A stretch of DNA of 64,000 bases, taken from positions 124,001 to 188,000 of the forward strand of contig JAIYCU010000029.1 in the NCBI GenBank assembly GCA_027487835.1, in the 5' to 3' direction. Each line of letters begins with the position of its first letter. Within the stretch, counting starts at the first letter, position 1. Below the pieces are notes generated by a model. The model saw only the letters and a list, made by a program, of their open reading frames with translations. It was not told the origin of the DNA and did not search any database. Of this stretch, positions 6,168 through 29,962 are shown in pieces. The stretch comes from Bacteroidota bacterium (GTDB lineage: Bacteria > Bacteroidota > Bacteroidia > UKL13-3). A program made the position numbers and the translations under genes.

Positions 6168-7187
6168 ATGAATCTAAATATTGCGGATGGTTTAAATTTC
6201 TTTTCTAAACTCAATCATAAAAAAATTGCGAATGCAATTAAGCTATACCTAAGTTTTAAACTTTCTCTTTTCTTTAAAAGACCCATTCACTGGGGAATGC
6301 CGGTGGTTATGGAAATTGAACCTACCACGAGCTGCAACCTTAGATGCCCGCAGTGCCCAAGTGGTTTAAGAGAATTTTCTCGCAATACGGGAATGCTCGA
6401 CCTACCCCTGTACCGCAAAATTATTGATGAATTGCATGGAGAACTGATGTATCTCATTCTCTATTTTCAAGGGGAACCCTTTTTAAATAAGAACTTCTTG
6501 GAGTTTGTAAAATATGCAGCAGCTAAAAATGTATATACTGCAACTTCTAGCAATGGTCATTATTTTACGGATGAAATGGCAAGGGCCACAGTAGAAAGCG
6601 GCCTTGACCGACTCATCATTTCTATGGATGGGATTACCCAAGAAACTTATCAAAAATACAGGGTAGGAGGGAACCTCGAAAAGGTGTTAGCTGGCACAGA
6701 ACGCTTGGTATATTGGAAGAAAAAACTGGGTAAAAGTACCCCAAATATCATCTGGCAGTTTATTGCTTTTAAACACAACGAACACCAAATCCCTGAACTA
6801 AAAAGAAGGGCCAAAGAATTAGGGGTAGATGAATTAGGCATTAAAACAGCCCAAATTTATGACTATCAGCATACCGATGACCTCATCCCAGAAGATGAAG
6901 CCTTAAGTCGTTACAAAAAAACAGACCAAGGCTATGTAATTAAAAATGAATTATTGAACCAATGCTGGCGCATGTGGCGTGGTTCTGTTATTACCTGGGA
7001 CGGACTTGTAGTGCCTTGTTGCTTTGACAAAGATGCCACACATCGTTTTGGTGATGTTAGCACCGATTCGTTTGCCAAAGTTTGGAAAAGCGATTTATAC
7101 AATAACTTCCGATCTGCAATCTTACGTTCGCGCAAGGAAATAGACATTTGCACCAATTGCACCGAAGGCACCAAGGTTTGGGCTTAA
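6168..7187 (+). CDS. Radical SAM/SPASM domain protein of unknown substrate
   Basis: The radical SAM cluster motif CNLRCPQC (CxxxCxxC) lies at about residues 56-63 and should bind the [4Fe-4S]-SAM centre. The C-terminal part carries more cysteines (CWRMW near 264, VVPCCFDKD near 283, CTNC near 331) in SPASM style, expected to hold auxiliary Fe-S clusters as in peptide-modifying enzymes. No precursor peptide gene is visible next to it. The start is the ATG 3 nt after the ftsZ stop, so it is probably co-transcribed with the division genes. An internal Met near residue 44 is a possible alternative start. The substrate is unknown. Confidence 0.85.
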   Translation: MNLNIADGLNFFSKLNHKKIANAIKLYLSFKLSLFFKRPIHWGMPVVMEIEPTTSCNLRCPQCPSGLREFSRNTGMLDLPLYRKIIDELHGELMYLILYFQGEPFLNKNFLEFVKYAAAKNVYTATSSNGHYFTDEMARATVESGLDRLIISMDGITQETYQKYRVGGNLEKVLAGTERLVYWKKKLGKSTPNIIWQFIAFKHNEHQIPELKRRAKELGVDELGIKTAQIYDYQHTDDLIPEDEALSRYKKTDQGYVIKNELLNQCWRMWRGSVITWDGLVVPCCFDKDATHRFGDVSTDSFAKVWKSDLYNNFRSAILRSRKEIDICTNCTEGTKVWA

Positions 7188-10221: not shown

Positions 10222-10458
10222 ATGAACCAAGAATTGGAAGAAAAAGTAGAGATTGCACTTAACGGAATGAGACCCTTTCTACAGGCAGATGGTGGCGATG
10301 TTGAATTGGTAGAAATTACAGACGACTTGGAAGTGAAACTGCGCTTGGTTGGCAATTGCAGCAGTTGTTCTATGAGTTCCATGACCATGAAAGCAGGCAT
10401 AGAAAACGGAATCAGAAATGCCTTGCCACAAATTACAAGAGTAACAGCGGTGGAGTGA
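10222..10458 (+). CDS. NifU-like C-terminal domain protein (Nfu-type Fe-S scaffold)
   Basis: This 78-residue protein is a stand-alone NifU C-terminal domain. It has FLQADGGDVELVEI at about residues 19-32 and the cluster-binding CSSC at about 46-49, followed by the helix SSMTMKAGIENGIR. Such proteins hold a [4Fe-4S] cluster at a dimer interface and donate it to apo-enzymes. It sits 20 nt after mrp, so both probably belong to one Fe-S maturation operon. Confidence 0.93.
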   Translation: MNQELEEKVEIALNGMRPFLQADGGDVELVEITDDLEVKLRLVGNCSSCSMSSMTMKAGIENGIRNALPQITRVTAVE

Positions 10459-11252
10459 GGAAAATAAAGAAGCATTTTGGCTTTCCGGTCCTTCCCACAC
10501 TCCACACTCACACTTTATTTGTAGTAGCTAGGGGGTCTGTTTTGGGCCAAAGAAGGTGTTGATAGAGATTTAGAAGGGTGGTATTGGATAGGACTGCTAA
10601 ACGCGGTGTATGTGACCATAAAATATCGAATCAAATTGACCACCCTAAATTGCTGGCGAAAATTGATCATTTCTTCAAGAAAAACAGCAGTTTATTGCTA
10701 ATTGTTATTCAATAGAATTTAATAATTGATTAGTTTATATAGTCCGAAATTAACTAGTCAATTTCACCGTTTTCTCTACGCACAAAACCGCAGAAGCATT
10801 TTACTTCTAATGAAAAGCAAATTGGGAGGATATAAAAGCATTTTTGTTCTATACAGAGCCAAGTTGTCAGGCAATAAGATATGTTTTTGTTTAATATAAA
10901 AGCTATTCAGTTCAAGTGAGAAGCAAAAGCAGTTTACATAGATTTAATTTCAATCTATGGATGACTTAAATTAAAAGTAATTAGATTTAATTTTTTTCTA
11001 GCATGAAGCAAAAGAAGAAAGCGGCTAAGCATTTTGTTTTTATCTTGAAGCAAATTGTTTTTCCATTGAAGCATTTCAGTGCTAGCGATAAGCAAAAAAT
11101 GACAAATTTTCATCAATTTCAATGTCAATCTTAAAGCGCGCTAAGTCATCTGTGTTTATCTTCGACTATAAAATGATACCTCCCAACTAAAACAAACCAT
11201 CTATCTGTGAATCCGTGGCAGTCTCCATTGAATAAATTTTCTGGCTTTTTCC
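10459..11252. other. 794-bp interval without a convincing gene
   Basis: I see no conserved coding sequence here. An open stretch of about 45 codons (about 10577-10712, plus strand, GTG start, containing DHPKLLAKIDHFF) has no recognisable family. The segment 10780-11100 is rich in the word GAAGCA and contains one copy of the dispersed 180-bp repeat. The interval ends at the stop of the minus-strand PIG-L gene, so it is a convergent spacer. Confidence 0.7.
10893..11071 (+). repeat. Dispersed ~180-bp repeat, copy A
   Basis: This segment matches the reverse complement of 28502-28680 along its whole length, by eye about 80-85 percent identical. It runs from AATATAAAAGC through TTCAAGTGAGAAGCAAAAGC and GATTTAATTTCAATCTAT to TTTTTCCATTGA. 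It has no open frame spanning it and no flanking direct repeats that I can see. Confidence 0.85.
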
Positions 11253-13763
11253 TTACTTCTTCGCCACATGTTTTCCTTGCTCAATTAAGTTAACCATAAG
11301 TTTATAGGCCCCTGCATTTCCAGCTGGTAACTGCCTAAAAAACACCAAGCCTGTATAGGTAAAATACCCTTTGCCATACTTGGTGGTAATTAAACTTCCT
11401 GTGGTAGGTTTTTCACCCACATCTGCCATGATAAAAAGTTGCTTGTAATTAGTATCTACCTCGGTGGCTTCATAAATGCTTCGCTCCTGAATCCAATTTT
11501 CAAAATCCTTTTCTCTTATTTTATTCGGAACATTTAACACAGGGTGTTGCGGTTCCAAAAAGTTAACCATGGCTTGTTCATTGGTAATTCTATTGCGCGA
11601 AATTTTAAAAGGGTAGGGGCCAATTTCACCTTTAAAAGGTCCTGCAAAACTATTGGTATTGTATTGTACAATTAGGTTTCCGCCATTTCTAACATAATCC
11701 ATTAGCCTGCTTTTATAAAGGGTAAGTTGTTCATTGGTATTAAAGGCTCTAACCCCTGTTATGATGGTTTGAAATTCTGCTAGCTTGCCCTTCTTAATGC
11801 GCTCATCTGTTATAATGACCACCTCATATCCTAATTGCTCTAAGCTGCTGGCAACTTCATCTCCAGCACCAGGGATGTACCCAATTTTTTTAAGCTTTCT
11901 TTTTATATCGGTTTGAACCAATTTAATCGCAGCCGTGGGGAAAATACCTTGCACTGGAATATGGTCATACTTTATCTCTTCATAGCCTAAGTTAAAGGGC
12001 ATAGCATAGCCACTCACCTCCACCCTAAATTGAACTAATCCTGTGCTTTCTGCTGCATCTTTATTGCTCACCAGTACATTCAATTCTTGCATTTCACCTT
12101 TTTTTGCAATTTCAAAAGGATAGGATTTATCCCCAAATTTTAGGTTTCCCATTACCTTGTCTTTTTGTGCCTGCACCACTACTTTTAGTTTCTTAGAAGA
12201 TTGACCATTTAAGAGTAAAACATCGGCTGGTAATTTAATGGTTACAGGCGGTACCAATAAATGGGTTCTATACTGTTCACCCTTGTCTGGATCGGTCCAT
12301 TTGTATTTTAAATTTTCTGAGAATTGATAATTCTCACCCCCAATATTTAAATCAAAAAGTATGAGATAATTGGTGCTTAATCCCCATGGGTCAATAGAAG
12401 GAGAATGCACAAATTTGTTCTCTTTAATTGGATTGTTTAGCCAAAAGAGTGTGCTAGGCGCTGCCTTGCTGCACGTAACCAAGCTAATTGTTTTTTGAAA
12501 AGGTTTATTAGTGTTTAAAACTTGCGTAAGGTTATCATTAAATGCACCGGGTGAGCAATCAGGTAAGTTTGCCCCATTTAAGAATACCCCTATTCCTACT
12601 AATTGAATATTGGCATTGGATCTATTGAGTGCTGTAATTTTAATTTTTAAGGAATCACCGGCTGCAACTATTCCAGCGCCTTCGGCGCTAGCCTCAATGT
12701 AAATGCCATACATGTGCAATAAAAGTTTATATAGTCTTTCCCGATGATAGGTAGGAATATCACTGTCGTTTGTTTGACAAATAGCAATTGCTTTTTTGAT
12801 TAGTTTATTGCAAGCATCTAAGTCGTTTTGTTTCCAAACTTGCAAGAGTTCTATGAGTAGGTCTTCTAGTTTTTTTCCAGATTTAAATCGCTTTAATCCA
12901 AGGTCTATCCCTTGAAATAAATCCTTAAGGTTTGCCGTATCTCCTTTTATAGGTTTAAAATATTCAAAAATTTCTCCCCTTTGTTTGGCTGATCCAAAAC
13001 CTTGGGAGCGGTGCATGCTTCTGCTCTCAGCCGCAATTTCTCCATAACTTTTTCCCAACAAGACATTGTAAGTTCCCACATCAACCTTTAGGTGGCCACC
13101 CATGTCTGCATTGGGATTCCAAAATCTAGCCGCCGAATTATACATAAGCCGTTTGGCTTGCCACACACTCACACTTGTAAGTTGAGAAGGAAATCGTTTT
13201 GGATTTGCAGCTGCTTCAAAGGCTTCTTCTGCTAATAAAGCAGAAGCCGTATGATGTCCATGGCCGCCACTGCCATCTGTTGCAAATCTTGTGATGATGA
13301 TATCTGGTTTAAAGTAACGAATTACAAAAACCATATCTTCTAAAATGGCTTCTTTGTTCCACTTTTCAAACGTTTCTTGAGGTGTTTTGCTGTAGCCAAA
13401 ATCAAAAGCCCTGGTAAAAAATTGTTCGCCACCATCTGTTCTTCTAGCCGCTAGCAATTCTTGGGCTCTAATGATGCCTAATGAAGTGCCTTGTTCTGGG
13501 CCAATTAAATTTTGTCCACCATCTCCGCGAGTTAAACTTAAATAACCCGTTCTCACACATTTTTCATTGGCAAGCCAAGAAATCAAACGCGTATTTTCAT
13601 CATCTGGATGTGCTGCTATATAAAGCACGGAACCAGTTGTTCTCAGTTTCTTTATTTCTAATTCAATTTCCGAAGCGTTCAGGTTTCGCGGAGATTGCGC
13701 CTGTATAAAAGAAGCGGTAAAAAGAATAGAAAGGGCAGTAAGAAATGGTTTAAAATATTTCAT
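11253..13763 (-). CDS. Secreted PIG-L family (GlcNAc-PI de-N-acetylase-like) protein
   Basis: After a signal peptide ending near FTASFIQAQ, the PIG-L/LmbE-type domain has the metal-binding and catalytic AHPDDE at about residues 51-56 and the distal His motif GHGHHTA near 167-173. Family members are zinc deacetylases of N-acetylglucosaminyl compounds; the substrate here is unknown. The remaining 500 or so residues look like beta-rich domains followed by a GATase-like segment (EVVIITDERI, VRNGGNLIVQYNTNSF). At 836 residues it is far longer than the 230-residue single-domain enzymes, but long envelope versions occur in Bacteroidota. I prefer the ATG at 13763 over 13778 because MKYFKPF starts a normal signal peptide. 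Confidence 0.88.
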   Translation of the reverse strand: MKYFKPFLTALSILFTASFIQAQSPRNLNASEIELEIKKLRTTGSVLYIAAHPDDENTRLISWLANEKCVRTGYLSLTRGDGGQNLIGPEQGTSLGIIRAQELLAARRTDGGEQFFTRAFDFGYSKTPQETFEKWNKEAILEDMVFVIRYFKPDIIITRFATDGSGGHGHHTASALLAEEAFEAAANPKRFPSQLTSVSVWQAKRLMYNSAARFWNPNADMGGHLKVDVGTYNVLLGKSYGEIAAESRSMHRSQGFGSAKQRGEIFEYFKPIKGDTANLKDLFQGIDLGLKRFKSGKKLEDLLIELLQVWKQNDLDACNKLIKKAIAICQTNDSDIPTYHRERLYKLLLHMYGIYIEASAEGAGIVAAGDSLKIKITALNRSNANIQLVGIGVFLNGANLPDCSPGAFNDNLTQVLNTNKPFQKTISLVTCSKAAPSTLFWLNNPIKENKFVHSPSIDPWGLSTNYLILFDLNIGGENYQFSENLKYKWTDPDKGEQYRTHLLVPPVTIKLPADVLLLNGQSSKKLKVVVQAQKDKVMGNLKFGDKSYPFEIAKKGEMQELNVLVSNKDAAESTGLVQFRVEVSGYAMPFNLGYEEIKYDHIPVQGIFPTAAIKLVQTDIKRKLKKIGYIPGAGDEVASSLEQLGYEVVIITDERIKKGKLAEFQTIITGVRAFNTNEQLTLYKSRLMDYVRNGGNLIVQYNTNSFAGPFKGEIGPYPFKISRNRITNEQAMVNFLEPQHPVLNVPNKIREKDFENWIQERSIYEATEVDTNYKQLFIMADVGEKPTTGSLITTKYGKGYFTYTGLVFFRQLPAGNAGAYKLMVNLIEQGKHVAKK
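11909..11919 (+). repeat. Dispersed motif, copy 3 (in the PIG-L gene)
   Basis: TATCGGTTTGAACCAATTT. On the coding (minus) strand it is read as VQTD. Confidence 0.85.
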
Positions 13764-13823
13764 AAGGCAAATAAACAAAATAATGCCGATGTGTAACTAA
13801 AGTTCATTGCCTATTTTCGCAGC

Positions 13824-19727: not shown

Positions 19728-22700
19728 ATGACAAATTATTACTTATCAAAACTTCTATCTCCGCATTCTGCCATTCGGAGGAAATTTGGTTCAGCAATGA
19801 TTGGAATATTTTTATTGTTTGTAGCCGTATTTGCTACTTACGAAGCAAATGCCCAATGCTACACACCGCCTAATTATTGTACGAATATTACGGCAACAAA
19901 TAATGCAAATTATCAAATGGGGATACAAAATGTAACCCTAGGTACTACAGCATTACCAACACAGATAAACAATACCACAGTAGGGGGCACAGGCACTCAG
20001 ATTTATTTTAATTTTACGAATTTAATTGCAAGGGCTTTAGCGGGGGATACTGTTTTTTATTCGATTAGGGTTGGAAATAGTAATAGTACAACTTTTAGAA
20101 TCTTTATAGATTACAATAATGACGGTACATTTGCCACAACAGCTCCTGAGCTTGTTTTTACTTCAGCGCAGGTTACAGCCAATGGGGTGGTTACTGGTAA
20201 TTTTGTATTGCCTTCAACATTGCCAGCGGGCGCATACAGATTTAGGGTAGCCAGCGATGGGTTAAATCAATTGCCTTCGCCTTGCGGACCAACCTTTTAT
20301 TCTGCAGAATATGAAGACTACACAATATTAGTACCTGCTGCAACCGCGGATTTAATAAGTGGTACCATTACCCAGCCTGCCTCTCCAATTGTTGGAAATA
20401 ATACGGTAGCATTCAATTTTACCAACTTATCTACGGTAACTATTACAAGCGTTGATATTTATTATCAATTAGGGACTAACACACCTGTTTCCCAATCTTT
20501 GTCTAGTTTAACAATTGCACCTGGTGCTTCCTATACCGCAACCTTTTCTACCCAAGTAAGTATTCCTTCTGTAGGTACTTACCTTTTGCGTACTTGGACA
20601 GATAATCCTAATTTGGTTGGAAATAATACACCTGCTAATGATACCATTTGTAGAAGTTTAGCTACATATTGTTCTGGGCCTTTAGCAGGTACATATACCA
20701 TTAATCCTGCTGGTTCAGGCGCAACTAACTTTAGAACTTTTGGTGCTGCCGATTCAGCTATCACTTCATGTGGTGTTTCTGCTCCTGTAGTATTTAATGT
20801 AACACCTGGCACCTATAATGAACAAGTTACATTTTTAGCCATTCCTGGCGCAAGTGCCACAAACAATGTAATATTTAATTGTGCTGGAAGTACCCTAGAA
20901 TTCAATTGTTCGGCAACCAATCCGGCGCTTATCCGATTTCAAGGGGCTAAGCATATTACTTTTGATAGTTTAACCATTCGTTCTACAAGTAATACTTTTG
21001 GTTGGGGTCTACACTTCTTGTTAAACGCCGACTCTAATACCTTTAAAAATGGTAGAATAGAAATTACAAACGTTACTTCAAGTAGTTCTAATAATTCAGC
21101 AGGTATAGTGTTTTCAAATAGCTTAACATCAGTGTTAACCTCTGGAAATAATGGTGCTGGAAATTTATTCTTAAATAATGTTATAAAAGGAAGTGCATCA
21201 AGTTTTGGACTTTATTATGGAATTGTTGGATTTCCTCAAAGTTCATCTGTAACCTATTCTGGTAATCAATTTATCAATAATAGAATTGAAGATTTTTTCC
21301 AGTTTGGTGTGTATTGGCAAAACGGAAATAGAACAGTATTTAGAGGCAACTATTTTACAAGAGCCACCAAAGTGCAGCAAACAACTGTTTATGCTTTTTA
21401 TCTTTCTTCTCAATCTAGGTTCGAAACCTTTGATAGAAATGAAATTGTAAATATGTTTGGCGGTTCTCCAACCTATACAGGAACATTTTTTGGTTGGTAT
21501 ATGATCAACTATTCAGGTGCTAATAATTCAACAGAGAGTAATATATTCACAAATAACTTACTTCATAAAATTAATGGTAATGGACCGCAATATGGTTTTT
21601 ACCTATTGACAAGTTTTAACAACCGTTTTTATAACAATACTTTGTTGTTTGACAATGTTAGCAATACTTCTACTACAGCGCAAACTTGGGGTTTATACTT
21701 CACAGGAGGTACTTCAACTTTTTCAGCTTTAGATTTTAGAAACAACCTTATTGCCATTACAAGAGGTGGCACAGGTCAGAAATTAGCATTAAATATTACA
21801 GGGAGTTGGCTTACAGGCGCTACTGTAAATAGAAATGCTTATTTTGGAAGTGCAACAAATTATAATTTAGCAAACTATCTAGGTGTTAATTATGCAGGTT
21901 TGACCCAATGGAGAGCTGCACTTACAGTGGCTGATCAGCAAAGTATTGAAGTGTCTCCAAATTTTACCAATCCAGTTGCGAACGTTTATTCACCAAGGGA
22001 TGGAGCCTATAATGGAAGTGGCGATACTACTTTACTTTCAATAGTTCCAGTAGATTTTACAGGTGCTAGCAGGGTAAACCCAATGGATATTGGTGCTTGG
22101 GAAGCCTCACCAGTGGCTGTTGATGGTGCCATGGCAGAGATTGTAGTTCCTACTGCACCTTATGCGGCAGGTTTGCAAAATATCAATGTAAAAATTAGAA
22201 ATGCTGGTGTTAATGCCATTGACAGTGCAATGATTAATTGGACTTTGAATGGAGTACCTCAATTACCGGTAATGTACACAGGTCCATTAGCAGGTGGAGC
22301 AGTTTCAAGTAATATATTATTAGGCAGTGTAAATTTAACTGTAAACACCTTATTCAATATTACTGCAACCATAGGAAATGTGAATGGTAGCCCAGATCCA
22401 AATCCAGATAATAATTCATTGTCAAGAATTACTGCACCGGCATCATTTGGTACCTTAACCATCAATTCTACTGGTACAGGTGCAGGCGTTTTCCAAAACT
22501 TTACAAATGTTGCAACCTTGCTATCTATAGGCGGTGTTTCGGGTCCTGTTACCATTAACGTGGTTTCGGGTTCAGGCCCTTATACAGAGCAAGTTTTCTT
22601 TAATGCAATTCCTGGTGTAAGCGCAACAAATACTATCAATGTAAATGGTAATGCAAATACACTTCAATTCAATAATTTAGATCCATCAAATATTGGGATT

Positions 22701-25700
22701 TTGAATTTAATAGGTGCAGATTACATGACTTTTGATAATCTTTCTATTAGGTCATTAAACGCATCATATGGAATTGGGGTTATTTTTACAGCAGGTGCAG
22801 ATTTCAACAAAATTCTAAATAGCACCATAGATATTGGCTCAGTAACAGGTAGCTCACTATCTGCGGGTATTGCCTTCACAGGAAGTTTAGGTAACGCTAC
22901 CACTGCTGGTGTAAATGGTACTAATAACCTAATTGCCAATAACCAAATCATCGGAAATTCTACAGGCGGTCCTTATTATGGTATTGCCTATCAACCACAA
23001 GCGGTAAATAATGGCGTAAACACGTTTAATGTTTTTAGAAATAATGCATTGAGAGATTTTACGGTGTTTGGATTTTATGTAGCATATAGCGCGGGTACAA
23101 CCTATTCTGGAAATGTAATTTCTCGTCCTACCAAAGCCTCACCTACAACTTTCTATGGTTTTTATATGGTTAATAGTGTTAATCAAGATACAATCGAAAA
23201 CAACATTATCAAACAACCTTATCAGGCCTTACAAACTACAACTGGTACATTTTATGGCTATTACTTAATTGCAACAAACACGCAAACAGGACGTCCAAAT
23301 ATTTTCCGTAATAACCAAATGTATGATATTAAATTTAATGGTACCATTTATGGATTTTATCAATTGAGTGCTAGTAACCTAAGATTGTTAAACAATATTT
23401 TTGTGGTAGATCATCCTACTGCCACTTCAACTAGTGTTACATATTTATATTACAACTCGGGTACGCCAACTACCACAACCATTAGAAACAATATTTGGTT
23501 CTTAAATAGAGGTGGTTCAGGCGCAAAGTACATTTACTACCTAGCCACTACTGGGGCAGGTTATGTAATTAATAATAATGTAGTTCACTTAAAACAAACT
23601 GGTACCAATAATTTTGTAGGTTTCCATGCTGCAAATGTGAATACGTTTACTGCTTGGAAAGCTGTAAATTCAAGCGCCTATGATCAAAATAGTGTGGATG
23701 CAGATCCTCAATTTAGGTTGTCTGTAGGTCCAGAATATTACATGCCTGGCAGCGATTCTGTAAATAATGTTGGTTTTGTAACTGCTGATGTGCCAAGAGA
23801 TGTTACGGGTGCACTTAGAAGCACTACAACGCCAGATGCAGGTGTTTATGAATTTGGTGTATTTGGAGATGATGCAGGTTTAACCCGCGTTACTGCCCCA
23901 ATAAATCCAATTGGTTTAGGGGTGCAAAATGTAGATGTAGTGCTAAAGAATTTTGGTACTAATACACTTACTACCTCATTTATTAATTGGACAGTGAATG
24001 ATTCATTGCAATCGCCAAACCTTTGGAATGGGTCATTGGCAAAAAATGATACAGCCATTACATCGGCTGGTACCTACAATTTTGTTAACCCAGGATTATA
24101 CAGAATTAAAGCTTGGTCTTCTTTGCCAAACTCGGCCGCAGATAGCTTCCCAATTAATGATACAGTTAGGGTAACGGTTTGTACAGCCCTTGCTGGCAAT
24201 CTATTTGTAAATGCAACCGTTCCAACCAATGACTCTACGTTCAATAGCATTGCAGCGGTTAGCCAAGTTTTACAAACCTGTGGTGTAAATGCACCTGTTG
24301 TAGTAAATATTGCCCCAGGTACTTATAATGGTGCTTTAACTTTTATCGGCAAAATTCCAGGTTCTTCACCAATAAATACAATTACGTTTAGAGGCCTAGA
24401 TTCTGCTACTACTAAAATTGTTCACAGTGCATCTGGCCAAAGAGCAACCATTCTATTGGATGGCGCTAAATATTTAATATTTAGAAACCTAACAATAGAA
24501 TCAAGTGCATTATCTGGCGGTGGTTATGGAGTTTTATTTACCAATAGCGCAGATAGTAACAGCATTATTCGTTCTACGATTAGAGTAGCTCAATTAACCA
24601 CAGGCTTTACAACCTTTGCAGGCGTTGCTTCTAGTGGTAACGTTTTGAACCTAAACACTGCAGGTAATAATGGTAATGTTTTATTGGTAGACAGTTGCAC
24701 AATTATTGGAGGTTATTATGGTGTGAACTTCTTTAATAACACCACTACTAAGTCTGTTGGAAATGTGGTTAGAAATACAAACTTTATCAATTCATTTTAT
24801 TATGGAGTTTACGCCTATGCCCAAAACGGAATCATAGCAACCAGAAATAGAATTACAGGCTCAGGAAATGGTATCAATACTTTTGCTTGCCCATTGTATT
24901 TTGTTTTTTGTGATAATGGTATCAATGTAACTAAAAATCAATGTAGTAACCAATTAGGTGGATACGGAATTTTTTTAAGTCAAAACAATGGAACTTTAAG
25001 CAATAGAAATGTGATTGCGAATAACATGTTCCAATTGGGAGCCATAACCTATACTACCTACGGTATTTATGATGCTGGAAATAATTACACTGATATAGCG
25101 CATAATTCAGTGCATAACACTTCTGGAGATGCAAGTTATGTGAGTTGTGCAGTGTATTTAAATTATAACAACACTTTAACCTCTTCCAACTTAAGAATGG
25201 TTAATAATGTGTTTTCTGCTCCTAATGGTGCAATGGCATCGTGGATTCCATCTACTGGATCACTTTCTACCAGTTCGATTTTGGCAAATAATAATGTTTA
25301 CTTCTCAACATCAACCTATCCTTACAGAATCGTAAACACAATTTACCAAGCCCTTCCAAATTATGTTACAGCTATGGCCGTATTTGTTCCAGGCTTAGAT
25401 TCTTTAAGTATTTGGACAAATCCAAGCTTCCTTTCCACAACAAATTTGCGTTCTATTAATCCTCAGTTAGATTCTATTGGTATGCCAATCGCAACTGTGG
25501 TTGATGACATTGATGGTGTTTCAAGAAGTACAGTTGCCCCTGATGCAGGTGTAAATGAATTTGCTAAACCAAATGATGATGCTGGGGTTATTGCAATTTT
25601 ACAACCTTCTCAACCTACAATTGCTGGCTTAACTAATGTTCGAGTGGTAGTTAGAAACTTTGGTGTTAGTACCATAACCTCACTAAATGTTCATTACACA

Positions 25701-28349
25701 GGTGGAGGTGCGCCAGTTACTAGAGCCATTACAACATCAATTTTACCAGGCGCTACTGATACTGTTTTATTCGACAGCACAAGTGGGCCAAGTAGCTCAG
25801 ATCAAAGGTTTAATTTCACGGGTGCTAGTATTAACTTTAAAGCTTATACCTCACAACCAAATGCGGTAGTTGATCTTCAAAATCTGAATGATACTACCTT
25901 TATAAGTATTTGTGGGGCATTGGTAGGTACTTATACCATTAATCCGGCAGGCTCAGGAACAAGTAACTTCTTGTCAATCGGTGATGCAATTAATAGGTTA
26001 ACTTGTGGTGGCGTTGCTGGTAATGTAATATTCAATATTGCTTCTGGAACTTATACAGGGCAATTTGACCTAACACCAATTGCAGGAACAAATGATACTT
26101 CGAGAGTTATTTTCCGCTCACAAACAGGTAATCCTGCAAATGTGATAATTACCTCTTCAACTGCAACCGCAGGTGACAATTTCACGGTTCGTTTAAGAGG
26201 TGTTTCTTTTGCATCTTTCTTAAATGTTACCATTAGAAATACCAATCCAACAAATGGTAGGGTGTTTTCAATCAATAAATGGACTCCAACCAATACCAAT
26301 ACAAATAATCTAATCATAAGAAATTGTATTCTAGAAGGTATTACCACCACTAGTACAAGTGATTTATTGGCTATTATCTATGGTCCAAATGGAGATAATG
26401 CAACAAATATTCGCATTGTTAACAACCAAATACGCCAAGGTTCTTATGGAGTTTGGATGGGTGGTCAAAATGTCATTAACCAATTTACACCTGGTTTAGA
26501 AATTGACTCAAATAATTTTGTTCAACCATACTGGGCTTCTATCAATTTAACGAGCAGAAATGAAACCAAGATTAGAAATAATTTCTTTGATGGAAATACA
26601 ACTCAAGGTTATTATGGTATCTATATGGTAAGTATTTCAGGTAATACCGAGGTAAGTAGAAATAATTTTCAATTGCCATTTTCAACTTATGGTATCTACA
26701 TTTCACAAAATGGATACTATGGAGAAACAGGGGTAGCGCATATTAAGAATAACGTTATTAATATGTTGTCAACTAACACCCAGTATGGTATTGCTTTGTT
26801 TAATACTTCTTCTACTTACACCATGAATAATACAATTAGGTTGAATACTTCTTCGACTTCTTTTGCTTATTATTATGCAGGGCACTCAACTAATCCATCT
26901 ATACCGCAGGTTACAGCTTCAAATAACGTAAGGTTATTTAATAATATCCTTTGGTCGAATAATGGTTATGCAGCTTATTATGCAAACTTCCAAGCAATAA
27001 CTGGTACTTTACAATCAGATAATAACTTGTATTATACAGGTGGTACTAATCTTATTTTTTCTAATGGCTTAAATTATACACCTGCTAGTTTCTTAACCTT
27101 TAGAAATGCACTCTATGCTGGATCTGATAGAAGGTCATTAAGTTCAAATATCAATTTTGCTTCTAGTAGCAATTTATTGCCATCACTTACTGCCTCAAAT
27201 GCTTGGGCTGCTAATGGCCGTGGTGTTCAAACTACTTTTGTTACCAATGATTTTACAGGTGCAAATAGAAGCACAATGGTAGCAACAGGTGCAACAGATA
27301 TTGGAGCATTTGAGTTTACACCTACTTCTACACCGCCAGCAGTTGCATTTACAGGCTCTATAGGCGGCGGAAATACGCAGCACATGGTAGTGTTTGGTGA
27401 CACCATTGGTAAAATTGTATGGGGCTTTACAGGTACAGTGCCAAGCGCTATGTCTGCAACCTATCATACAGGTGCAATCATTAGTAATCCAACCAATACA
27501 GGCACTATAACTGGTGCTCATTATATGGATGTATTCTGGAGAATCAATGCCACTGGAGGTTCATTCTATAATTATGATTTGACCCTAAACTTTGATCCAA
27601 ATATGTTGGGTACTGTTCCTTTTATGTCTGATTTAAAATTAGCTAAAAAACCTACAGGTACTGGCTACTGGACACATTATGGCTCAACTGCTACTGCAGT
27701 TGATACTTTAGCCTTTACTTTTGGGGTTAATGGTTTATCTGATTTCTCAGATTTTACCGGAACTTCAGATATCTCTCCATTACCTGTTGTATTAGGAAAC
27801 TTTGAAGCAGTTAAGGAAGGTGAAGCTAGCGCTGGTTTATATTGGAATACAGTTTCAGAAAAGAACAGCAGCCATTTCATAATCGAAAGAGCAAGTGAGT
27901 ATGGTAAGTTTGAACCAATTGAAAAGCTAAAAGCTGCTGGCAATAGCCAGAAAATGCTTAACTATCAATTTAATGATAAGAATGTAGCAGAAGTACTTAA
28001 TACAAATACTGTATTCTATCGTCTAAAAATGGTAGATCAAGACGGTTCATTTGAATATAGTGCCGTTAAAACAGTTTATTTTGGTAAAGATGCAGAAACA
28101 GATGTTACTTTATATCCTGTGCCATTTAACAACGAGATTTCAATTTTCATTGCATCAAATGATGCGCTTAAAGGAAATATCGAAGTGTTAAATTTAATGG
28201 GTACTGTTTGTTATAAAACTAGCTATACAGTTAAAGCAGGTGGTGAAAACATCAGCTTAACAGAACTAGCTAAATTATCTGCTGGGGTTTACCTAGTAAG
28301 AGTTCAAATTAACAACGAATGGGTAGTTAGAAAAGTAATTAAAGACTAA
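19728..28349 (+). CDS. Giant modular beta-helix protein with T9SS type A sorting domain
   Basis: The 2873-residue secreted protein starts with a long signal peptide (hydrophobic core near residues 24-38, ending YEANAQ). A GEVED-like domain follows at about 100-200 (RIFIDYNNDGTF, EYEDYTI). Four similar modules of about 570-585 residues then begin near residues 320, 904, 1484 and 2062 with GTYTINPAGSG-type motifs. Each continues into Asn-rich parallel beta-helix repeats (FRNNxxY, GIYxxG). The linkers between modules look CARDB-like (VVVRNFGVSTI). After a fibronectin-like region (FYRLKMVDQDGSFEYSAVK), the last 80 residues form a T9SS type A sorting domain (LYPVPFNN, LSAGVYLVRV, RKVIKD). It is probably a surface adhesin or glycan-binding protein. 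Confidence 0.93.
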   Translation: MTNYYLSKLLSPHSAIRRKFGSAMIGIFLLFVAVFATYEANAQCYTPPNYCTNITATNNANYQMGIQNVTLGTTALPTQINNTTVGGTGTQIYFNFTNLIARALAGDTVFYSIRVGNSNSTTFRIFIDYNNDGTFATTAPELVFTSAQVTANGVVTGNFVLPSTLPAGAYRFRVASDGLNQLPSPCGPTFYSAEYEDYTILVPAATADLISGTITQPASPIVGNNTVAFNFTNLSTVTITSVDIYYQLGTNTPVSQSLSSLTIAPGASYTATFSTQVSIPSVGTYLLRTWTDNPNLVGNNTPANDTICRSLATYCSGPLAGTYTINPAGSGATNFRTFGAADSAITSCGVSAPVVFNVTPGTYNEQVTFLAIPGASATNNVIFNCAGSTLEFNCSATNPALIRFQGAKHITFDSLTIRSTSNTFGWGLHFLLNADSNTFKNGRIEITNVTSSSSNNSAGIVFSNSLTSVLTSGNNGAGNLFLNNVIKGSASSFGLYYGIVGFPQSSSVTYSGNQFINNRIEDFFQFGVYWQNGNRTVFRGNYFTRATKVQQTTVYAFYLSSQSRFETFDRNEIVNMFGGSPTYTGTFFGWYMINYSGANNSTESNIFTNNLLHKINGNGPQYGFYLLTSFNNRFYNNTLLFDNVSNTSTTAQTWGLYFTGGTSTFSALDFRNNLIAITRGGTGQKLALNITGSWLTGATVNRNAYFGSATNYNLANYLGVNYAGLTQWRAALTVADQQSIEVSPNFTNPVANVYSPRDGAYNGSGDTTLLSIVPVDFTGASRVNPMDIGAWEASPVAVDGAMAEIVVPTAPYAAGLQNINVKIRNAGVNAIDSAMINWTLNGVPQLPVMYTGPLAGGAVSSNILLGSVNLTVNTLFNITATIGNVNGSPDPNPDNNSLSRITAPASFGTLTINSTGTGAGVFQNFTNVATLLSIGGVSGPVTINVVSGSGPYTEQVFFNAIPGVSATNTINVNGNANTLQFNNLDPSNIGILNLIGADYMTFDNLSIRSLNASYGIGVIFTAGADFNKILNSTIDIGSVTGSSLSAGIAFTGSLGNATTAGVNGTNNLIANNQIIGNSTGGPYYGIAYQPQAVNNGVNTFNVFRNNALRDFTVFGFYVAYSAGTTYSGNVISRPTKASPTTFYGFYMVNSVNQDTIENNIIKQPYQALQTTTGTFYGYYLIATNTQTGRPNIFRNNQMYDIKFNGTIYGFYQLSASNLRLLNNIFVVDHPTATSTSVTYLYYNSGTPTTTTIRNNIWFLNRGGSGAKYIYYLATTGAGYVINNNVVHLKQTGTNNFVGFHAANVNTFTAWKAVNSSAYDQNSVDADPQFRLSVGPEYYMPGSDSVNNVGFVTADVPRDVTGALRSTTTPDAGVYEFGVFGDDAGLTRVTAPINPIGLGVQNVDVVLKNFGTNTLTTSFINWTVNDSLQSPNLWNGSLAKNDTAITSAGTYNFVNPGLYRIKAWSSLPNSAADSFPINDTVRVTVCTALAGNLFVNATVPTNDSTFNSIAAVSQVLQTCGVNAPVVVNIAPGTYNGALTFIGKIPGSSPINTITFRGLDSATTKIVHSASGQRATILLDGAKYLIFRNLTIESSALSGGGYGVLFTNSADSNSIIRSTIRVAQLTTGFTTFAGVASSGNVLNLNTAGNNGNVLLVDSCTIIGGYYGVNFFNNTTTKSVGNVVRNTNFINSFYYGVYAYAQNGIIATRNRITGSGNGINTFACPLYFVFCDNGINVTKNQCSNQLGGYGIFLSQNNGTLSNRNVIANNMFQLGAITYTTYGIYDAGNNYTDIAHNSVHNTSGDASYVSCAVYLNYNNTLTSSNLRMVNNVFSAPNGAMASWIPSTGSLSTSSILANNNVYFSTSTYPYRIVNTIYQALPNYVTAMAVFVPGLDSLSIWTNPSFLSTTNLRSINPQLDSIGMPIATVVDDIDGVSRSTVAPDAGVNEFAKPNDDAGVIAILQPSQPTIAGLTNVRVVVRNFGVSTITSLNVHYTGGGAPVTRAITTSILPGATDTVLFDSTSGPSSSDQRFNFTGASINFKAYTSQPNAVVDLQNLNDTTFISICGALVGTYTINPAGSGTSNFLSIGDAINRLTCGGVAGNVIFNIASGTYTGQFDLTPIAGTNDTSRVIFRSQTGNPANVIITSSTATAGDNFTVRLRGVSFASFLNVTIRNTNPTNGRVFSINKWTPTNTNTNNLIIRNCILEGITTTSTSDLLAIIYGPNGDNATNIRIVNNQIRQGSYGVWMGGQNVINQFTPGLEIDSNNFVQPYWASINLTSRNETKIRNNFFDGNTTQGYYGIYMVSISGNTEVSRNNFQLPFSTYGIYISQNGYYGETGVAHIKNNVINMLSTNTQYGIALFNTSSTYTMNNTIRLNTSSTSFAYYYAGHSTNPSIPQVTASNNVRLFNNILWSNNGYAAYYANFQAITGTLQSDNNLYYTGGTNLIFSNGLNYTPASFLTFRNALYAGSDRRSLSSNINFASSSNLLPSLTASNAWAANGRGVQTTFVTNDFTGANRSTMVATGATDIGAFEFTPTSTPPAVAFTGSIGGGNTQHMVVFGDTIGKIVWGFTGTVPSAMSATYHTGAIISNPTNTGTITGAHYMDVFWRINATGGSFYNYDLTLNFDPNMLGTVPFMSDLKLAKKPTGTGYWTHYGSTATAVDTLAFTFGVNGLSDFSDFTGTSDISPLPVVLGNFEAVKEGEASAGLYWNTVSEKNSSHFIIERASEYGKFEPIEKLKAAGNSQKMLNYQFNDKNVAEVLNTNTVFYRLKMVDQDGSFEYSAVKTVYFGKDAETDVTLYPVPFNNEISIFIASNDALKGNIEVLNLMGTVCYKTSYTVKAGGENISLTELAKLSAGVYLVRVQINNEWVVRKVIKD

Positions 28350-28373: not shown

Positions 28374-28410
28374 AACAGTGGGGCGGCCGAAGGCCGCCCC
28401 ACTGTTTTGT
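28374..28410 (+). terminator. GC-rich terminator of the giant gene
   Basis: A perfect 15-bp stem (28374-28388 with 28392-28406), loop GAA, is followed by TTTTGTTTT. The stem is very GC-rich compared with its AT-rich surroundings. Confidence 0.92.
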
Positions 28411-28501
28411 TTTACTGCCATGCCATTTACTTAATCGCTTTGATATTCTCATTGATTTCATGATAATATGTCATTGTTGGGTTGGAGTTTTAACAAAATC
28501 A

Positions 28502-28680
28502 CATCAATGGAAAAATAATGTGCTTCAGCATAGAAGCAAAATGCTTTGCCTTTTTCTTCTTTTGCTTCAAGCTAATAACAGATTAAATCTATTTACACTT
28601 AATTTAAGTCGTCTATAGATTGAAATTAAATCTTTGTAAACTGCTTTTGCTTCTCACTTGAACTGAATTGCTTTTATATT
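28502..28680 (-). repeat. Dispersed ~180-bp repeat, copy B (inverted relative to copy A)
   Basis: Its reverse complement aligns with 10893-11071 from end to end. Long identical words include TTCAAGTGAGAAGCAAAAGC and GATTTAATTTCAATCTAT. It fills most of the 28350-28771 spacer, which otherwise contains only two terminators and one dispersed-motif copy. Confidence 0.85.
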
Positions 28681-28701
28681 TTACCAAAATGCATAGTTAT
28701 T

Positions 28702-28712
28702 GGTTCAAACCG
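28702..28712 (-). repeat. Dispersed motif, copy 6 (beside a terminator)
   Basis: TTGGTTCAAACCGAAACT begins at 28700. It ends 7 nt before the terminator stem of the sugar transferase operon and lies at the end of repeat copy B. Confidence 0.85.
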
Positions 28713-28718
28713 AAACTA

Positions 28719-28755
28719 AAAAGCCCCTTAATGTCTTTTGCATTAAGGGGCTTTT
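28719..28755 (-). terminator. Terminator of the receiver/sugar-transferase operon
   Basis: A perfect 15-bp stem (28719-28733 with 28741-28755) with a 7-nt loop. On the minus strand it ends in a T run 16 nt after the sugar transferase stop. By symmetry it may work in both directions. Confidence 0.9.
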
Positions 28756-28771
28756 AGGTAATAAAACTTTC

Positions 28772-29962
28772 TTATACGTTTTCCTTTTGAAACAAGGCTG
28801 GAATGGTTCTTAAAATAATTTTTATATCATTCCATAAAGAATAATTTTTAGCGTACTCATTATCTAATTCCATGCGTTCTTCTTCACTCATAGGGCCACC
28901 TTTTCCTCTTTTAGTTACTTGCCACAAACCAGTGATACCTGCTGGTGCAAGAAACCTTAAAGCAAATTGATCTGTTGTAAGTTTTTCAGCTTCATAAATA
29001 GGTAAGGGCCTATTGCCTACAATGCTCATATCACCTTTTAACACATTGAATAATTGTGGAAGCTCGTCTATACTAGTATTACGCATAATTTTACCAAAAC
29101 GCGTAATTCTAGGGTCATTTTCAATTTTAATAAACTTTGAGCCTTCTTTGATGCGTTTGTAATCTGCAAAAACCTTTTCACAAATCTTATCGCCATCCAT
29201 ATATAAACTGTTCTTACACGCTATATTGGACGCTTTACATTCCTCACAAACATAGTTTTTATAATCCTCTAAAGATTTCGCTTCATTGGCGTTGCTATAT
29301 TGGTTAAGATGCTTCAAGTTTTTTAACATCGCATCTGCTCCTTGGCGCATCGAACGGAATTTATAAAAATCAAAAGGCGTATATCCTGTGCCTACGCGTT
29401 TAGCAGCATAAAAAACAGGCCCTCTCGATTCCAACATAATGATGATTGAAAAAATAATAAAGAAGGGGAGTAAAAATAATAAGGCTAAAGATGCAAATAC
29501 AATATCAAAAATTCTTTTAGCAACTGGAATACTATATTTAGAGAAATTATTCCGAGCCGTAACAATACTTTTATGATACCTAGGTGGATTTTCAATTAAG
29601 TAAATTGCCCTTGTTAGAAACTCTTCATGGATTACCGGCCTTTCAAAAATTTCTGCAAATTGCTCCATTAACGCAATATTTTTATTTGCATCTGTGATTC
29701 TATCTACAATTAATACAAAGGGAACATTTGCGATTTTAGGCACATTTTTACAATTTTTCCGCAAGGTTATACCATTTGCACCAAGCAAGTCAGAATAGGT
29801 AACTACCATCTTCACAGCCTCATTTGCATTGGTCCACTGTATAAATTGGAAGATATTATCGAAATGAAAAATTTCAAATTCTTCTCTGAAGGTATGGGAA
29901 AATTCTACAATTGCATCGGGACTTGCCGCTATGAAAGCAATTCTGTATTTAATTGTTTCCAT
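28772..29962 (-). CDS. Polyprenyl-phosphate sugar transferase with N-terminal receiver-like domain
   Basis: The C-terminal half is a bacterial sugar transferase (WcaJ/PglC type), which loads the first phospho-sugar onto the lipid carrier for exopolysaccharide or glycan assembly. It has the membrane helix KRIFDIVFASLALLFLLPFF (about 149-168), KFRSM near 201, RFGKIMRNTSIDELPQLFNV (about 288-307), SIVGNRPLP, and PGITGLWQV-like APAGITGLWQV. Residues 1-125 have the alternating beta/alpha look of a receiver but no clear phosphoacceptor Asp. An insertion at about 212-285 contains four cysteines (239, 242, 249, 261), which may bind metal. It lies 2 nt after a CheY-like gene, so signalling control is likely. 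Confidence 0.88.
   Translation of the reverse strand: METIKYRIAFIAASPDAIVEFSHTFREEFEIFHFDNIFQFIQWTNANEAVKMVVTYSDLLGANGITLRKNCKNVPKIANVPFVLIVDRITDANKNIALMEQFAEIFERPVIHEEFLTRAIYLIENPPRYHKSIVTARNNFSKYSIPVAKRIFDIVFASLALLFLLPFFIIFSIIIMLESRGPVFYAAKRVGTGYTPFDFYKFRSMRQGADAMLKNLKHLNQYSNANEAKSLEDYKNYVCEECKASNIACKNSLYMDGDKICEKVFADYKRIKEGSKFIKIENDPRITRFGKIMRNTSIDELPQLFNVLKGDMSIVGNRPLPIYEAEKLTTDQFALRFLAPAGITGLWQVTKRGKGGPMSEEERMELDNEYAKNYSLWNDIKIILRTIPALFQKENV

Follow-up and report, generated by a model that had tools for sequence, protein, structure and literature searches.

A degenerate array of 21-bp units dispersed through intergenic spacers of a Bacteroidota genome, and arrays of similar period behind tRNA genes

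The window analysed here is a stretch of 64,000 nucleotides (positions 124001-188000 of contig C46) from a genome of 3.38 Mb in 46 contigs, designated G000, that represents an uncultured Bacteroidota lineage. Two of its gene spacers contain resembling sequences, which we call copies A and B. The spacer of copy A is bounded by a 78-aa frame ending at 10458 (+) on one side and by frame 11253-13778 (-) on the other, while that of copy B is flanked by 19728-28349 (+), a frame of 2873 aa, and by 28772-29962 (-). An earlier note had described an inverted pair of about 180 bp with roughly 80-85% identity at 10893-11071 (+) and 28502-28680 (-). The pair is real: both ranges are enclosed in a gap-free match of 186 bp on opposite strands (87% identity, 24 mismatches), and BLAST inside the window aligned 10872-11138 with 28702-28436 (216/269, 80%, 4 gap positions, E=1e-64). 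The resemblance of copies A and B lies far beyond chance. The two ranges fall inside the element and represent only part of its extent, as listed below together with two neighbouring features.

10784-11224, + strand: copy A, a degenerate 21-bp array with a right-hand tail of about 100 bp, delimited from the five-copy alignment and from lags 21 and 42
10893-11071, + strand: core of copy A, the range of the earlier note, gap-free against the other copies
28436-28702, - strand: copy B, shortened on both sides relative to the fuller copies (limits of A and B approximate)
28502-28680, - strand: core of copy B, the range of the earlier note
28716-28754, - strand: hairpin resembling a terminator, belonging to the neighbouring sugar-transferase gene; it lies outside the element, is kept in sister species and was placed by eye
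28374-28409, + strand: G+C-rich palindrome resembling a terminator, located by eye outside the element and behind the large frame 19728-28349

G000 contains five copies of the element, two in the window (A and B) and three elsewhere (C at C13:6976, D at C46:733 and E at C17:23746). These five copies bear out the earlier description of a dispersed non-coding element; all are intergenic, and copies A, C, D and E have about 400-440 bp in common. Convergent spacers, as described for the pair, are found at both window copies and hence at 2/5 copies genome-wide, because the other three adjoin tRNA genes in other arrangements. The lack of further copies in this or related genomes had been named as an outcome that would speak against such an element; more copies do exist in its own genome, while a search of 59 relatives (18 from the genus, 18 from the family and 23 from the class) found none of full length and pieces of at most 46 bp. 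Six of the eight short pieces in relatives match the last part of the query, a stretch with a tRNA terminator. An exact pattern scan of viral_contigs and genome_contigs with one conserved block of about 40 bp, which detects near-identical cores only, was empty. Searches for a phage or plasmid source say little because the query included tRNA genes: the matches in the best 20 of 999 and the best 20 of 94 records all fall in this tRNA-gene part. Named relatives, reached via the sugar-transferase gene next to copy B, are MAGs that carry the label Bacteroidota or that of a group inside this phylum. Two observations concern the surroundings of the copies. ATCTGTG-type words at the right end of the element (window 11205-11224) also occur in unrelated spacers of the clade (L061 in G007; C46:7110). 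Next to copy D (L056 1136-2744), a helix-turn-helix gene is followed by a HipA_C gene (Pfam); judged by these domains, the two genes, which separate copy D from the next gene, resemble a HipBA toxin-antitoxin module.

Self-matching produced peaks at lags 21 and 42 in all five copies. Copy B lies below the flag of the periodicity scan (z 4.5), yet lags 21, 43 and 42 lead there too. The element is a degenerate tandem array of 21-bp units with a core of about TAGAAGCAATTTGG, a structure that had been missed: the GAAGCA words reported earlier are real, and they recur at 21-bp steps. A better-kept array at C23:17749 has a consensus unit (ATTAGAAGCAATTTGGTTCTA) to which those of copies D (GTAGAAGCAAATTGATTCTAA) and E (ATAGAAGCAATTTGGTTAAAT) are similar, and those of copies A and C are less like it. 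Scoring with the C23 consensus gave z = 12.5, 11.2, 13.3 and 7.6 for copies A, C, D and E, compared to 1.7, 4.3, 3.3 and 4.0 for the reversed consensus used as a control. The reverse complement also scored high (8.4, 11.2, 10.5 and 6.6) because the unit is semi-palindromic. In G000 the C23 family comprises four better-kept 21/42-bp arrays and two weak pieces, and it has no match in the sister species G007 or G009. The element is related to these four arrays. Copy C abuts a different 21-bp array (TTAAACGTTTAA core, TTAAACGTTTAATG.. family) at L055 (C13) 6600-6915; this family occurs at two loci, the other being L044 (C2) 1490-1730. The abutting array contains two long perfect inverted repeats whose arms, measured by eye, are 14 and 17 bp, strong folding is predicted for it at C13 (z -8 to -12), and it shows weak 7- and 14-bp periodicity peaks.

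That no open frame spans the element, as noted earlier, was confirmed: within an aligned block of 295 columns, each of the five copies has at least two stops in every one of the six frames. Frames of 43-57 aa overlap copy A. A coding origin, such as a heptad-repeat protein, was rejected on account of these stops and of substitutions that follow no three-base pattern (30, 32, 27). A-specific mutagenesis, as in diversity-generating elements, was likewise discarded since substitutions hit all bases. The suggestion of a structured RNA is not supported. A family of RNA genes would account for the small palindromes, for the folding of the five copies on the + strand (z -1.3 to -3.8; 0.3 to -2.3 on the other strand) and for a tail hairpin with one compensatory pair. 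However, the compensatory changes in stems that had been proposed as a check were seen in 1/76 predicted pairs among five sequences only, with a covariation penalty, and a search of the five loci against Rfam returned only tRNAs above the gathering score, the one other match being far below it (26.1 vs 208 bits). Across the wider class of arrays described below, some fold with z of -7 to -12 and others show no excess folding (L094, L104 and L117, near 0), so that hairpins were rejected as a class-wide feature. We consider a structured RNA family highly improbable.

Noncoding windows were scanned for arrays with periods of 13-44. The sample of the own genome amounted to 400 kb, in 20 pieces chosen before scanning; the thresholds (z 4.5 and 5) were set by us and are uncalibrated for neighbouring windows, and upstream flanks and other periods served as controls. 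The 400 kb contained 6 noncoding arrays, 5 of them with 21/22-bp units. With the window and the loci fetched for matching the element added, 10/12 arrays had periods of 21, 22 or 42. In G007, 3/4 arrays were at 22 bp; in G056, which belongs to another family, 2 of 7 arrays were at 21 and 1 at 41. The scan came back without arrays for other relatives (258 kb), G009 (24 kb) and E. coli K-12 (50 kb, too small to count). Unit families differ in sequence between arrays, and some arrays have a family in common. Family X (about GGTGSGRAGCTACTMYMYAARW) is present in G000, G007 and G009 and absent at E<=1e-6 from the 16 other genomes of the genus; gathered via its AGCTACT-like core, it yielded 88 units, 42 of them distinct, with variants recurring across loci. 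The units are contiguous and degenerate and lack unique spacers, which sets the arrays apart from CRISPR. The element belongs to a wider class of intergenic arrays of 20-22-bp units, with many unit families in the clade. As a side observation, family X arrays lie at several contig ends (C6:1, C23:1 and C34:1 in G007; C35:6 in G000), and such arrays may therefore break (metagenome) assemblies.

Arrays of this class occur preferentially downstream of tRNA genes. Arrays of 20-23 bp (z>=5) were present within 520 bp downstream of 8/27 tRNAs in G000, 8/30 in G007 and 3/29 in G009, and upstream of 0/27, 0/30 and 0/28, respectively. The pooled counts are 19/86 downstream vs 0/85 upstream (p = 1.2e-6), with rows that are not fully independent, as tandem tRNAs have common flanks and the 19 rows represent 17 distinct arrays. 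Flanks below 150 bp were dropped (3 downstream and 3 upstream tRNAs in G000; 1 and 2 in G009), and each search covered 30 loci, outside which lie 5/35 tRNAs of G000, 2/32 of G007, 2/32 of G013 and 29/59 of G056. At other periods, tRNA flanks gave one match at 18 bp downstream in G000 and one at 15 bp upstream in G009. Protein genes in the G000 stretches had arrays at 2/249; for this baseline the array window also had to be less than 50% coding, a condition that was absent from the tRNA count. In G013, of the same genus, 0/30 tRNAs had a downstream 20-23 bp array (two matches were at 30 and 32 bp), and its two upstream matches had periods of 21, in this case inside an open frame, and 17. G056 had none at 30 tRNAs on either side. 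Because it is missing in G013 and G056, the habit seems to be young and confined to this clade, and its absence behind 30 tRNAs in each of these genomes indicates that such arrays are not needed generally. In the accessible parts of openly licensed papers on bacterial intergenic 21-22-bp or tRNA-flank arrays, the tRNA-flank habit was not found, which is weak evidence of absence. The same flanks hold other recurrent features. A terminator hairpin, AAACCTGTCAAGATNTTGGCAGGTTT, recurs behind tRNA genes in several species of the genus (L038 at C46:521-560, L041 and L031, with relatives at L032, L033, L036 and L039), and a shortened form stands behind another gene in G056. At L220 and L233, downstream of tRNA-Asp and tRNA-Leu, seven-base words (TTAGCTTTTGGC..) directly follow the terminators (by eye); a 7-bp array class may exist beside the 21/22-bp class.

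Comparison of the three species revealed different unit families at the same tRNA sites. Downstream of tRNA-Arg(cct), G000 has the element itself (family Y, 21 bp), G007 has family Z (22 bp) and G009 has family X (22 bp). At tRNA-Arg(acg), G000 has W (21 bp) and G007 has V (20 bp), with a similar array of 20 bp in G009. The tRNA-Glu site carries Y in G000, X in G007 and no array in G009. Family X is found at tRNA-Asp in both G000 and G007, in opposite orientations. Over 22 tRNA sites, G000 and G007 both have arrays at 5, one only at 2 and 2, and neither at 13 (p = 0.014, one-sided), in a table that was assembled by hand and omits tRNAs without a G000 locus, e.g. Ser(gct), where G009 has an array. 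Co-occupancy was not significant for G000-G009 (p 0.10) or G007-G009 (p 0.07). The spacers of G007 and G009 syntenic to copies A and B contain unrelated sequence, and that syntenic to copy A includes an open frame in both species (183 aa in G007, at least 366 aa in G009). Compared to the G000 array site C46:55330-55738, G007 (C23:50931-68212) carries about 17 kb of extra DNA including a different 22-bp array.

The nearest described system found is BrickBuilt, a minisatellite/MITE of Porphyromonas gingivalis with 23-nt contiguous units and 19 copies, always intergenic (PMC4596501). It has a leader, a tail and inverted-repeat ends, target duplications are reported, and loci are gained and lost between strains (PMC4596501). 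It comes from the same phylum and has in common with the arrays here the contiguous units of about two helical turns, the dispersed intergenic placement and the variable loci. Its unit of about 23 nt differs by 1-3 nt from the 20-22 bp seen here (21 in the element), and it has one unit family, as opposed to the many families of 20-22 bp, the preference for tRNA 3' flanks and the family swaps at one site found here. This precedent, the five dispersed intergenic copies and the end-unit variants that three C23-family arrays have in common at left and right (ACCTGACAAAATG.., ACCTGACAACTTG..; by eye) would suit a MITE-like element as the earlier note envisaged it, that is, a non-autonomous transposable element carrying the minisatellite and moved by a transposase encoded elsewhere, as proposed for BrickBuilt. 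Those end variants are, however, direct and not inverted, no terminal inverted repeat or target duplication was seen by eye, and the two syntenic sites compared in the sister species are not clean empty sites, so we regard transposition of this kind as improbable. Because no leader or tail with inverted-repeat ends was seen by eye in the five-copy alignment, we file the element as like BrickBuilt and not as a member: a BrickBuilt-like minisatellite, with the tRNA 3'-flank preference, the fixed two-turn spacing and the unit turnover as new features.

Other known repeats are more distant. REPs of enterobacteria, regularly spaced in alternating orientations (PMC2817692), and BIMEs, which are bound by DNA gyrase (PMC6379681), are also dispersed intergenic repeats with palindromic parts, but here the 20-22-bp units are contiguous and hairpins are not class-wide. 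TAACTGA heptamer repeats occur in Beggiatoaceae, Cyanobacteria and some Bacteroidetes, and in the orange Guaymas genome they lie mostly just upstream of start codons (PMC4679880). They too are intergenic short tandem repeats of patchy distribution, present in some Bacteroidota. Their period of 7 is a divisor of 21, and weak peaks at 7 and 14 bp were noted above for the array next to copy C. As described, they consist of one fixed 7-nt unit, unlike the many 20-22-bp families here, often downstream of tRNAs. The pairing of repeats spaced by 11, 21 or 22 bp in Neurospora (reviewed in PMC12235515) offers a parallel only.

The spacing of the units proved unusually constant. In four fuller copies aligned over 295 columns, at least 89 substitutions were accompanied by 0 indels vs 12.3 expected (P about 4e-6), the expectation coming from orthologous noncoding DNA of G000 and G007 (177 indel events per 1276 substitutions). 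The block was picked after the alignment had been seen, and the whole element gives the same answer (copies A, D and E, 451 columns: 1 indel event vs 17.9 expected, at least 129 substitutions). Conserved columns also track the 21-bp phase (0/2000 permutations reached the observed value; 1/5000 with base identity held), while for phases 20, 22 and 10.5 the p values were no better than 0.025-0.036, and phases 19, 23, 7 and 3 gave nothing. Positions 0-13 of the unit are kept in 64-100% of units and positions 14-20 in 36-71%; in worn copies, unit identity is about 60%. The missing indels and the phase-bound conservation could reflect selection on spacing or in-register exchange. Alternatively, the arrays could be a functionless minisatellite that arose by slippage or unequal exchange, is tolerated in spacers, is moved by homologous recombination and has its unit length fixed by in-register exchange. 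Arrays restricted to one clade, many unit families without a common sequence, and family X variants that recur across loci, as expected from exchange, fit such an origin. It would leave unexplained that conservation among dispersed copies follows the 21-bp phase with base identity held, that copies with such low unit identity still lack indels between them, and that the bias at tRNAs is so strongly 3'. We see a functionless minisatellite as possible, though rather unlikely.

With about even confidence, we favour reading the element as an intergenic minisatellite that was dispersed when a block of up to about 440 bp was copied to five spacers at the DNA level, and whose unit spacing would be kept for the sake of a putative bound protein. 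Arrays would spread as DNA via recombination or template-switched repair copying, without a transposase of their own. This route is suggested by arrays of different families that directly abut, by unit variants common to several arrays and by reversed orientations. Frequent landing places would be the spacers beyond tRNA terminators, with new blocks replacing old ones. The two-turn spacing, which the indel and phase tests indicate is kept, through selection or in-register exchange, would turn the same face of each unit toward something, most likely a DNA-bending or DNA-wrapping protein. Several points weigh against this reading: in-register exchange could also keep unit length constant, helical phase is lost along arrays with units of 22 or 20 bp, the habit is missing behind the tRNAs of G013 and G056, and the element has no 10-11-bp G+C phasing.

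Gyrase is, by analogy, a natural candidate for a reader of the arrays. The gyrase sites of E. coli are marked by phased G/C variation of 10 bp and occur in excess downstream of operons with high transcription (PMC6379681). Such variation was detected in 8/14 class arrays tested, a mixed result for the class because only 8/14 show it and 21/22-bp arrays have harmonics anyway. However, copies A and D lack 10-11-bp G+C phasing (p=0.145 and 0.7), and the absence of the tRNA-flank habit in G013 argues against a need. More speculatively, tRNA 3' flanks might be standing "array addresses" where units are swapped while the arrays act by spacing and not by sequence, e.g. as phased sites for gyrase or another wrapping protein that takes up torsion in front of an RNA polymerase on its way out of a highly transcribed tRNA gene; we hold this to be unlikely, and offer it as tentative. 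The proposed turnover resembles that of eukaryotic centromere satellite DNA, in which the presence of an array persists while unrelated unit families replace its units.

At a minimum, the arrays account for part of the spacer DNA of this group, and they could provide a tractable test of how torsion, replication conflicts and repair copying play out behind tRNA genes. The usual view is that the intergenic DNA of bacteria is too lean for satellite-like turnover. If address and two-turn spacing are indeed kept while units are swapped, the arrays would be a bacterial analogue of eukaryotic satellite replacement, and their natural variety would allow one to ask if selection can act on DNA shape or spacing alone.
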